Positions 2,293 to 7,718 of a DNA stretch of 9,180 nucleotides are shown here, piece by piece. Numbering within the stretch: the first letter of the stretch is position 1; each line of letters starts with the position of its first letter. This stretch comes from Deltaproteobacteria bacterium RBG_13_61_14 (GTDB taxonomy: Bacteria; RBG-13-61-14): positions 1 through 9,180 of the forward strand of contig MGQK01000085.1 in the NCBI GenBank assembly GCA_001797815.1. Reading direction: 5' to 3'. The notes beneath the pieces were generated by a model. That model did no database searches. It was not told the origin of the DNA and worked only from the letters and a program-made list of their open reading frames with translations. The position numbers and the translations under genes were made by a program.

Positions 2293-2829
2293 TTACTTTC
2301 CTCCTCCCTGGTGAAAGCCGATCCTCCGGCGGGGAGGTTGCTTCGGATCCATCAATTGGCGGATGGCCGCGAGCAGGACTTGGATGCTCTCATCGTGAGA
2401 GTCGAGCCGGCGCTCCAATTGGGCAAACTTGTGAGCCAGCTCCTTGTGAGTGCCCAGCATTTCCCTGAGCTTGACAAAGGCCCGGACCACGTGGACGCTG
2501 GCCTGGATGGCGCGCGGGCTGTTAAGGACATTGGCCGCCATGATCGCGCCGTGCTCGGTGAAGGCATAAGGAGAGTAGCGTCGCCCTCCGCGACCCGCAT
2601 TTGAGGTCACAAATTGTGACCTCAAAGATTTCGCCTGATCGAGGGTAATCTTAAACATGAATTCAGGCGGGAAGCGATCCAGGTTACGCTTAACCGCCTG
2701 GTTTAAAACACGTGTCGGCACGCCATAAAGTATAGCCAGGTCCGCATCCAGCATCACCCGCTGGCCGCGGATGACCAGGATCAGGCTTTCAATGGGCTTG
2801 AGCGGGGCCAGAGCGCCGGGTTTTTTCAA
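2293..2829 (-). CDS. ORF6N-domain DNA-binding protein
   Basis: This 178-residue protein has the ORF6N domain at about residues 13-98. Recognisable blocks are VIRGQRVMLDADLAILYGV, LNQAVKRNLDRFP, FMFKIT, LRSQFVTSN, GGRRYSPYAFTEHG and AIMAANVLNSPRA. A predicted coiled coil follows at about 128-160, then the basic tail PPRRRIGF common at the end of this family. ORF6N proteins occur in phages and bacterial accessory regions and are thought to bind DNA; the biological role of chromosomal ones is not settled. The start is TTG, chosen because GGAGG lies six bases upstream and the domain begins right after it. No ATG start is available at the N-terminus. The gene has one perfect palindrome in its coding region and three palindromes upstream, so autoregulation is a natural guess. 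It looks intact. Confidence 0.88.
   Translation of the reverse strand: MKKPGALAPLKPIESLILVIRGQRVMLDADLAILYGVPTRVLNQAVKRNLDRFPPEFMFKITLDQAKSLRSQFVTSNAGRGGRRYSPYAFTEHGAIMAANVLNSPRAIQASVHVVRAFVKLREMLGTHKELAHKFAQLERRLDSHDESIQVLLAAIRQLMDPKQPPRRRIGFHQGGGK
2600..2626. repeat. Intragenic 27-bp perfect palindrome in ORF6N gene
   Basis: Arms TTTGAGGTCACAA (2600-2612) and TTGTGACCTCAAA (2614-2626) are perfect complements around one central base. The palindrome is centred on the codon for Phe73 and encodes L-R-S-Q-F-V-T-S (residues 69-76) of the ORF6N domain. Its core GGTCACAAnTTGTGACC is shared with the palindrome at 2850-2870 next to the ribosome binding site. A matching operator inside and in front of the same gene suggests a protein-binding site rather than chance. 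Confidence 0.8.
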
Positions 2830-2849
2830 TCTGGACCTCCGGGAGCTAT

Positions 2850-2870
2850 GTGGTCACAATTTGTGACCAC
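2850..2870. promoter_or_regulatory. Palindrome (candidate operator 1) before ORF6N gene
   Basis: Arms GTGGTCACAA (2850-2859) and TTGTGACCAC (2861-2870) are perfect around a single base. The site ends about 20 bp before the TTG start and lies just upstream of the GGAGG ribosome binding site, where a bound protein would block transcription or initiation. It shares GGTCACAA and TTGTGACC with the palindrome inside the gene. Confidence 0.7.
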
Positions 2871-2877
2871 CTCTTGC

Positions 2878-2908
2878 AACTTGATATCGCAATTTGCGAT
2901 ATCAAGTT
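2878..2908. promoter_or_regulatory. 31-bp perfect palindrome (candidate operator 2)
   Basis: Arms AACTTGATATCGCAA (2878-2892) and TTGCGATATCAAGTT (2894-2908) are perfect around one central T. The centre is 33 bp from that of operator 1, about three helical turns, so dimers could sit on the same face. It lies where the ORF6N promoter should be. The CAAnTTG core is common to all the palindromes of this locus; the outer arms differ. Confidence 0.7.
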
Positions 2909-2962
2909 TGTAACATCTTGATAATTAGCCTGAAACATCGCCAACGGTTACCTGTTTATGAA

Positions 2963-2977
2963 GACGCAAATTGCGAC
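2963..2977. promoter_or_regulatory. Imperfect palindrome (candidate operator 3)
   Basis: CGCAA (2965-2969) and TTGCG (2971-2975) flank one A, with an outer G/C pair beyond one mismatch. The flanks copy those of operator 1 on the plus strand: TATG starts at 2957 and 2847, and GACCACCTC follows at 2975 and 2865. Sites 1 and 3 therefore look like diverged copies of one unit. Confidence 0.45.
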
Positions 2978-2996
2978 CACCTCCCCGGCAGAGGTT

Positions 2997-6332: not shown

Positions 6333-6791
6333 ATGGAAAGCGTGGCGCTATTGAAGAAGGTCCGGTTATTCCAGGATTTGACCGAGCCGGAGGTCGAGAA
6401 GTTTCGGGAGGTGACCCAGGTCCAGAAGTATTCCCCCCAGCAGGTGATCATCGAGGAGGGCACCGAGGGCCGCGCGCTCTATATCATCAAGCGGGGGACA
6501 GTGGCGGTGAGCAAGGTGGACGGGGAGTTGGTGTCGGAGCTGGTGAAGCTGGTGGCGGGCGAGCATTTCGGGGAGATGTCGCTCTTGGAGGGCGCCAAGA
6601 CCTCGGCCCGGGTGTCGGCGCACAACGAGGTGGAGTGCGTGGTGATTGCGCGGGAGGACTTTCAGCGCCTGCTGGAGGCGGACGTGGCCCTGGCCGCCAA
6701 GGTGTACAAGGCCTTCACCCAGACGCTGTGCGACCGGCTGCGGGCGACCTCCAGCGAGTTGATGACCTGGAAGCCGGAGATCAGTTTTTGA
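6333..6791 (+). CDS. Cyclic-nucleotide-binding-domain protein 1
   Basis: This 152-residue protein is essentially one cNMP-binding (CAP_ED) domain, residues about 7-125. The LFQDL start, a beta-barrel with GTEGRALYIIKRGTVAV (43-59), and the phosphate-binding cassette GEHFGEMSLLEGAKTSARV (76-94) are visible. The key Gly80, Glu81 and Arg93 are in place, so nucleotide binding is plausible. A short C-terminal helix holds LCDRLRAT (132-139). There is no helix-turn-helix, so unlike Crp it should not bind DNA itself; it more likely senses a nucleotide and acts on a partner. AGGAGG six bases upstream fixes the start. Its stop overlaps the likely start of the receiver gene. The protein two genes on is a clear paralogue, including the LRAT helix. 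Confidence 0.9.
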   Translation: MESVALLKKVRLFQDLTEPEVEKFREVTQVQKYSPQQVIIEEGTEGRALYIIKRGTVAVSKVDGELVSELVKLVAGEHFGEMSLLEGAKTSARVSAHNEVECVVIAREDFQRLLEADVALAAKVYKAFTQTLCDRLRATSSELMTWKPEISF

Positions 6792-7231
6792 ATTTAGCGA
6801 TGGACGAGTCGGCGCCGAGAAAACGCCGGATCCTGGTGGCGGACGACACCGAGCTCTTCCGGGGCTTGATGGAAGAGGTTTTGGTCCGGGAGGGGTTCGA
6901 GGTGCTCCTGGCGCGGGACGGGCTGGAAGCCTTCCAGATGATCAAGCATGAGCTTCCGGACCTGGACCTGGTGCTGCTCGACCTCTTGATGCCCAAGATG
7001 ACCGGCTTTGACGTGCTCCGGGAAGTGCGCAAGGGCAAAATGGGCCAGAGTTTGCCGGTGCTGTGCATCACCAATGTGTTCAAGAACCCGGAGGAGGTGG
7101 ATAACTTGAAAAAAATGGGCGCCACCGGTTTCATCACCAAGGACCTTTCGCCGACCGAGATTGTGGAGCGGATCCAGCTGATGCTGGAGACGAACGCGGC
7201 GACCGCCCCGGCCGCGCCGGCGGAGGAGTAA
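6788..7231 (+). CDS. Stand-alone response regulator receiver (CheY-like)
   Basis: A single receiver domain of 147 residues has no output domain. Counting from the TTG start, the acidic pair is Asp19-Asp20 (VADD), the phosphoacceptor Asp65 (LLDLLMPKMTG), the switch Thr95 (CITN) and Lys118 (FITKD). All five conserved positions are present, so phosphorylation by a histidine kinase elsewhere is likely. An Ala/Pro/Glu-rich tail of about a dozen residues closes the protein. I chose TTG at 6788 because GGAG lies eight bases upstream and TTGA overlaps the previous stop, a coupling arrangement. The ATG at 6800, in the same frame, gives 143 residues but has no ribosome binding site. The domain sits between two cNMP-binding proteins and may switch or bridge them; that is inference. 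Confidence 0.9.
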   Translation: MNLAMDESAPRKRRILVADDTELFRGLMEEVLVREGFEVLLARDGLEAFQMIKHELPDLDLVLLDLLMPKMTGFDVLREVRKGKMGQSLPVLCITNVFKNPEEVDNLKKMGATGFITKDLSPTEIVERIQLMLETNAATAPAAPAEE

Positions 7232-7238
7232 AGGCAAG

Positions 7239-7718
7239 ATGGACCCCCGCGACGTGCTCGAAGGGATGCGGCTGTTCCAGGATCTCGACCCGCAGGAGCT
7301 GGGCCTGGTGCACCAGGAATCCGAGACGGTGACGCTTAAGCCGGAGCAAGTGGTTTTTCGGGAAGGGGAGCGGGGCGACTCGCTCTATGCCATCATCTCC
7401 GGCTCGGTGCGGGTGGTGCGCAAGCTCCCGGCCGGCGGGGAGGAAGTGCTGGCCCTGCTCCAGCCGGGGGAGTGCTTCGGCGAGATCAGCCTGGTGGATG
7501 ACGAGAGCCGCTCGGCCACGGTGATCGCGAACGAGGCGAGCGAGCTGATCCGGATCCGGCGGGAGACCTTTAACCGGCTGGTGGAAGAAGACCCCGAGCT
7601 CGCGCTCAAGCTTTACCGGGCCCTGGTCCGCATCCTCTGCGAGCGGCTGCGCGCGACCAACGATACCTTGACCTTTTCCCGCGACCTGCTCTCCGGGCTG
7701 ATGGACAAGGGCGCCTGA
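7239..7718 (+). CDS. Cyclic-nucleotide-binding-domain protein 2
   Basis: This 159-residue protein is a second single cNMP-binding domain. GERGDSLYAIISGSVRVVRKL (43-63) and the phosphate-binding cassette GECFGEISLVDDESRSATV (77-95) are closer to the canonical motif than those of protein 1, with Gly81, Glu82, Arg91 and the SAT triplet. The C-terminal helix LCERLRATNDTL (133-144) matches that of protein 1, so the two arose by duplication. There is no DNA-binding domain. It starts seven bases after the receiver stop, with AAAGG just before ATG. The pair could form a heterodimer, or respond to the phosphorylated receiver between them. Effector-like subunits of this type are sometimes annotated as Crp/Fnr-like, but the helix-turn-helix is absent here. 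Confidence 0.9.
   Translation: MDPRDVLEGMRLFQDLDPQELGLVHQESETVTLKPEQVVFREGERGDSLYAIISGSVRVVRKLPAGGEEVLALLQPGECFGEISLVDDESRSATVIANEASELIRIRRETFNRLVEEDPELALKLYRALVRILCERLRATNDTLTFSRDLLSGLMDKGA

Follow-up and report, generated by a model that had tools for sequence, protein, structure and literature searches.

In-frame palindromes in the wing codons of ORF6N genes co-vary with the predicted recognition helix of the encoded protein

The window, that is, the whole stretch of 9,180 nucleotides that was analysed (positions 1 to 9,180 of contig MGQK01000085.1, Deltaproteobacteria bacterium RBG_13_61_14), carries on its minus strand an ORF6N gene with a palindrome inside its coding sequence and further copies upstream of its start codon. 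The features of this locus are as follows.

2293..2829, minus strand: ORF6N gene of 178 aa (PF10543 match, E 1.1e-31)
2600..2626, no strand: intragenic perfect palindrome TTTGAGGTCACAAATTGTGACCTCAAA, a putative self-operator of 27 bp with 13-bp arms round one base
2683..2715, minus strand: predicted recognition-helix codons T39-R40-V41-L42-N43-Q44-A45-V46-K47-R48-N49 (AlphaFold2 helix and covariation)
2698-2700, minus strand: codon CAG of residue 44, which predicts palindrome bases 4 and 5
2829-2827, minus strand: start codon TTG of the ORF6N gene, downstream of GGAGG
2836..2840, minus strand: GGAGG, ribosome-binding site of the ORF6N gene by its sequence
2850..2870, no strand: upstream perfect palindrome GTGGTCACAATTTGTGACCAC of 21 bp, about 10 bp before GGAGG
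2878..2908, no strand: second upstream perfect palindrome AACTTGATATCGCAATTTGCGATATCAAGTT of 31 bp
2957..2983, no strand: third upstream copy, imperfect, with the core CGCAAATTGCG, of the CG class by its sequence

A scan for perfect palindromes detected exactly three long ones in the scanned region, at 2600-2626, 2850-2870 and 2878-2908. This confirmed the original prediction of a perfect 27-bp palindrome encoding L-R-S-Q-F-V-T-S within the ORF6N gene and of a perfect 21-bp palindrome directly before the ribosome-binding site; as for the two further palindromes placed behind the latter, that at 2878-2908 was perfect over 31 bp, whereas that at 2963-2977 (GACGCAAATTGCGAC) was imperfect, with 6/7 positions paired, and was part of the weaker copy at 2957-2983. 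The internal palindrome is more than chance: the window gene forms all 12 pairs that are possible between positions 2 and 13 from the centre, whereas 20,000 synonymous recodings drawn from its own codon usage formed 4.4 on average and never more than 11. In the whole 4.74-Mb genome, TCRCAAWTTGYGA occurred at four sites, every one of them at an ORF6N locus, and its reversed control pattern at none, by which the possibility of a dispersed, REP-like repeat was rejected. REP and Rickettsia palindromic elements are also short palindromes, those of Rickettsia lying inside genes, but they are dispersed over the genome, whereas the ORF6N-type palindromes are confined to ORF6N loci. The exact GGTCACANNNTGTGACC was found genome-wide only at 2605-2621, inside the gene, and at 2852-2868, within 2850-2870; allowing a single mismatch added just one genomic site, which precedes another ORF6N gene (L003), and when two mismatches were allowed the total came to 7, about equal to the 6 for the reversed control pattern. 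Orphan palindrome matches in the genomes of relatives mostly lacked the long arms.

Elsewhere in the window, a dispersed direct repeat (GGACACCATACTTAATTCC-like) was present in three intergenic copies (157-190, 892-925 and 2109-2142), and two AT-rich frames on the minus strand, 243-869 (208 aa) and 1098-2078 (326 aa), neither with a Pfam match, were located close to a GC-rich ribonucleotide reductase gene. At 6333-7718, a response-regulator-like frame was flanked on both sides by proteins with cyclic-nucleotide-binding domains.

The window gene belongs to the ORF6N family (PF10543), its protein scoring 109.4 bits over residues 16-101, above the curated Pfam cut-off of 27.8. The protein is predicted to consist of a winged-helix DNA-binding domain and a C-terminal coiled coil, with the terminus RRIGF. 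In an AlphaFold2 model (pLDDT 82), the predicted recognition helix spans residues 39-48, and the residues encoded by the palindrome (LRSQFVTSN) form a poorly ordered loop with a pLDDT of about 50, which follows the helix-turn-helix and lies between two short strands, that is, in the position of a wing. A PDB sequence search returned coiled-coil matches only, Foldseek returned no match to the model at E<=0.001, and VIA-align gave middling matches with Z<=6.6, which included SKI/Dachshund, RacA, ParA and MerR-type winged helices and APSES Mbp1. The model and these weak structural matches suggest that ORF6N is a winged helix.

The palindrome was then surveyed across the family. Genes were collected by peptide patterns outside the motif, by a Pfam search of whole genomes, and from viral contigs, plasmids and phages; the families were sampled from the genomes available, the start codons of homologues were guessed, and tree support was low. 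Pairing was scored at positions 2-13 on either side of the centre, 12 pairs in all, and a palindrome was called at 10/12 or more. As a result, a palindrome was present at the same place in 249/261 ORF6N domains, which came from many phyla as well as from plasmids and phage contigs, compared with 26/640 control windows of other ORFs, and most of the exceptions that were examined proved to be fragments or wrongly anchored genes. We propose an in-frame palindrome in the wing codons as a trait of the ORF6N family, which the window gene shows with its complete pairing. The source genome has two further ORF6N genes, L003 and L001, with a palindrome at the same codons in other bases (beginning TTCAAGATCACA and CTTGAGGTGCCA, respectively). 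The three genes have unrelated neighbours; L001 follows a phosphoglycerate-mutase-like gene at a distance of 48 bp and is itself closely followed by a purL-like gene (names given by eye).

Several members showed more than one palindrome or domain. Tandem in-frame double palindromes that differ from each other, mostly with the same recognised bases and different outer arms, were observed in L003, L012, L036, L095, L107, L109, L188 and L212. The related genomes G322, G319, G320 and G318 had 12 to 18 ORF6N matches each, and some of their open frames contained two ORF6N domains. In another genome of the same order (G001), three palindromes of the ORF6N class lie in a row at 1460-1570 of locus L265, at the end of contig C62; no ORF6N gene was found in that genome, and it may have been lost or lie beyond the contig break.

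The palindrome is under constraint at the level of DNA. The mean pairing was 11.1/12, compared with 5.0/12 in synonymous recodings with each gene's own codon usage, and 231/245 genes were at P<=0.01. Among 115 genes, the arms differed widely in sequence with their complementarity kept, each of positions 2-13 being 89-100% paired by up to four pair types; position 4, for example, was A-T in 52, G-C in 33, C-G in 24 and T-A in 4, and was paired in 98% compared with 34% expected. Beyond +-13, pairing fell to 45% at position 14 and to background at position 16. Since third codon positions in the left arm face second positions in the right, whether serine is written TCA or TCG tracks whether valine or alanine follows three codons on, and the pairs of left-arm codon and right-arm residue were S(TCA) with V, S(TCG) with A, F(TTC) with G, C(TGC) with G and F(TTT) with E. 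The same DNA is also used in a second reading frame, in which it encodes the unrelated peptide VVTNCDHL in place of LRSQIVTS, and the type of frame was unclustered on the backbone tree, itself poorly resolved (18 changes compared with a shuffled mean of 19.1). Two copies that were 98% alike in DNA had the same palindrome. As a separate observation, L041 and L048 are mostly 90-100% identical in the surrounding DNA and differ in a cassette of palindrome plus wing; the differing stretch comprises the 27-mer and about 30 bp downstream, and the changes are compensated in both arms.

We then compared every alignment column outside the palindrome with every palindrome base, using 112 disjoint pairs of nearest relatives. 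Residue 44 co-varied with base 4 (68 pairs with neither changed, 40 with both changed and 4 discordant; P = 1.8e-25) and with base 5 (P = 4e-13), residue 40 was a predictor of base 7 (P = 1.6e-10), and residue 41 co-varied with base 4 (P = 3e-6); no column besides 40, 41 and 44 came close for bases 4, 5 and 7 in these pairs. For bases 5 and 4, Q44 went with CA in 107/110 domains, E44 (with R41) with CG in 58/58, K44 (with N41) with TC in 19/22, L44 with TT in 5/5 and R44, the least strict, with GC in 22/33, and K40 went with G at position 7 in 131/132. These pairs agree with textbook residue-base chemistry, in which glutamine reads adenine, glutamate cytosine, arginine or lysine guanine, and leucine thymine. 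On supported tree branches, Q and CA changed together in 17/19 independent pairs and in opposition in none (p=1.5e-5). In a prospective test on 49 domains fetched after the code was learned, all 49 had the palindrome, bases 5 and 4 were predicted correctly in 44/49 (the commonest class accounting for 21/49) and base 7 in 46/49. The three ORF6N genes of the source genome also obey the code at bases 5 and 4 (Q/CA twice and R/GC once), 424/456 internal half-sites fitted the code of their own protein, and in genes with two internal palindromes both matched in 6/7 genuine cases.

Taken together, helix and site co-vary in the sequences compared, and each ORF6N protein very probably binds, as a homodimer, the palindrome that its gene contains; between the half-sites, the recognised bases are about one helical turn apart, as a helix-turn-helix dimer would require. 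The original prediction that the protein binds the palindrome and that gene and site co-evolve is thus supported by the near-universal palindrome and by the bases predicted from residues 40, 41 and 44. Its reason, that a change in the peptide alters the site, is a part of the explanation, but the co-varying partner of the site is the recognition helix, which is encoded about 85 bp away. The outer arms (positions 8-13) were paired, yet in the same 112 pairs they had no covarying partner in the protein backbone; therefore, the helix code alone is insufficient for the whole 27 bp. The outer arms may be read by the wing that they encode, or else structure or template switching may keep them alike.

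A similar palindrome lies close to the start, as guessed for the homologues, in about one ORF6N gene in eight, with base frequencies nearly those of the main-frame internal palindromes. The expectation that internal and upstream palindromes covary did not hold: in the 25 genes compared that have such an upstream copy, the likeness in the recognised bases was no better than in shuffled pairs (P = 0.41). Only 31/90 upstream half-sites fitted the code of their own protein, and therefore control of the promoter by the encoded protein is not general. At the window locus, 2850-2870 fits the code of its own protein (Q44: CA), and 2878-2908 carries CG, the bases of an E44-type ORF6N protein and not of the window protein. 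The exact cognate site predicted for the latter occurs only twice in the genome, once within the coding sequence and once immediately ahead of the ribosome-binding site. The genome G002, from the same order, has a Q-type gene that is preceded by two CG copies and whose paralogues are of the E type; the copies that precede one of its E-type genes are CA in one half and CG in the other, as would suit a heterodimer. The upstream copies thus look like operators of other ORF6N specificities. Within one genome, paralogues showed no measurable avoidance of each other's recognised bases.

Binding of a regulator inside its own gene has precedents. C.Kpn2I, the controller of the Kpn2I restriction-modification system, has a site inside its own ORF at which the bound protein acts as an elongation roadblock, its relatives have such an intra-ORF site singly or in duplicate, and the authors regard this promoter-independent control as suited to horizontal transfer (PMC6237814). 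ORF6N resembles it as a DNA-binding protein whose cognate site, as the covariation (Q44/CA) suggests, lies in its own reading frame. The C.Kpn2I site, however, is placed where the ORF begins and belongs to a single group of C proteins tied to restriction-modification genes. In ORF6N, a different family, almost every gene has the site, which is part of the coding sequence of the DNA-binding wing and shows covariation with the recognition helix. ORF6N may work like C.Kpn2I, but since none of the 8 window ORFs scanned with Pfam was a restriction-modification gene, we do not count it as a member of that type. LacI likewise limits its own transcription as a roadblock at operator O3, but as a single case with a site outside the DNA-binding codons of the repressor gene (PMC3711431). 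At the level of RNA, G-quadruplexes and the RGG motifs of human proteins show a coding relation in which the peptide has its nucleic-acid target in the very segment that encodes it, without a co-varying specificity code (PMC11789052).

We regard it as probable that an ORF6N homodimer binds the in-gene palindrome, with helix and site co-evolving, and that the likeliest use of this binding is promoter-independent autoregulation. A homodimeric winged-helix protein would bind the palindrome in its own wing codons through the recognition helix, and site and helix would co-evolve under a code of Q44/A, E44/C, R or K44/G and L44/T, together with K40/G at position 7. The bound protein would then block RNA polymerase on its own gene as a hypothetical roadblock, by which the gene would be held in check in whatever operon receives it, and additional upstream palindromes would serve as operators for the own or other ORF6N proteins. 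The unrelated neighbours of the three ORF6N genes in the source genome, and the position of L001 between two genes, fit this picture of horizontally moving self-control.

Autorepression is, in our judgement, the likeliest role, and its main rival, which we consider rather unlikely, is self-marking or self-immunity, in which the protein would act against foreign DNA or other copies and the in-gene palindrome would mark self or titrate the protein. We know of no defence phenotype of ORF6N, and most of the ORF6N genes found are chromosomal, both of which count against such a role, whereas the confinement of the predicted cognate sites to ORF6N loci and the presence of the genes on plasmids and phage contigs speak for it. 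The model for it is BstA with its aba element: BstA, which contains a KilA-N-like domain, is a putative DNA-binding protein, and its variants each come with a cognate aba, a DNA-based element that overlaps the gene of that variant (PMC8585504), to which ORF6N is similar by its covariation. However, aba spans the start codon, depends on terminal direct repeats and confers immunity to abortive infection, and in the excerpted account neither a palindrome nor a recognition code is described for it. The ORF6N palindrome, located in the wing codons, differs from aba in this respect.

The complementarity itself could also be what is kept. A DNA hairpin or cruciform, extruded for example when ORF6N genes exchange wing cassettes by recombination, would account for outer arms that vary freely with their pairing kept, for similar backbones with different wing cassettes as in L041 and L048, and for the unclustered frame type, but structure alone does not predict that helix residues match the inner bases, and the identical palindrome in the two closely alike copies also argues against it; we consider this reading improbable, and a version in which the structure is kept and the sequence is free was rejected once the helix code appeared. 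A hairpin in the mRNA, with a 12-bp stem and a loop of 3-5 nt, could form by its sequence, but among 2,940 pairs the G.T mismatches that RNA would tolerate (45) were not in excess over A.C (59), which places the constraint on DNA and not on RNA, and the bases follow a DNA-binding helix; in the lack of such a wobble signature, a functional RNA hairpin is largely refuted, and it is the reading to which we give the least credence. Only slightly more credible is a mutational artefact, in which the palindromes would be kept perfect without selection. Correction of quasi-palindromes by template switching is known in general, but it does not predict the same place in all phyla, a boundary at +-13 or the agreement with helix residues whose codons lie 85 bp off. 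The helix code refutes template switching as the sole cause, and it could nevertheless help to keep the arms equal.

Autoregulation through a self-encoded site may extend beyond ORF6N. In Bro-N genes (PF02498; L271-L299), which were taken as a control, in-frame palindromes followed the helix-turn-helix in 22/30 of the loci sampled (for example, CAGTTGTCGACAATTTGTCGACAACTG in L279 and CAAACGGTGACAAATTGTCACCGTTTG in L294), and in RhuM genes (PF13310; L399-L428 and L298), likewise only sampled, they were present in a third reading frame in 22/25 loci (for example, CAGTTATCCGGAAATTCCGGATAACTG in L409). RhuM has an apparent helix code of its own, since an E at X of its helix [NST]-X-H-[IL] was accompanied by CGG in one or both halves in 10/10. 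KilA-N genes had the palindrome in 0/6 loci. We put forward, as a tentative proposal that is well within the possible, that ORF6N, Bro-N and RhuM form a superfamily of mobile winged-helix genes with self-encoded operators, in which the wing codons would be the operator, the wing may read the outer arms, and wing, site and helix specificity would make up one self-referential unit that carries regulation or a self-tag into any context.

A site inside its own reading frame is already known from the C.Kpn2I group; the universality, the place in the DNA-binding codons and the readable code extend considerably further than this precedent. No earlier report of the palindromes of ORF6N or RhuM was found in the searchable literature, which covered few subscription journals. 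The code would allow the DNA target to be read directly from the gene for several poorly characterised and very widespread families, and recognition helix and operator would form a natural pair in each member, providing hundreds of matched protein-site examples for learning a recognition code. The palindrome is also a case of selection on DNA overriding selection on protein, since the choice among synonymous codons in one arm determines which amino acids the other encodes. More generally, the finding may explain how a solitary gene moving from operon to operon keeps itself in check, or is told from non-self.
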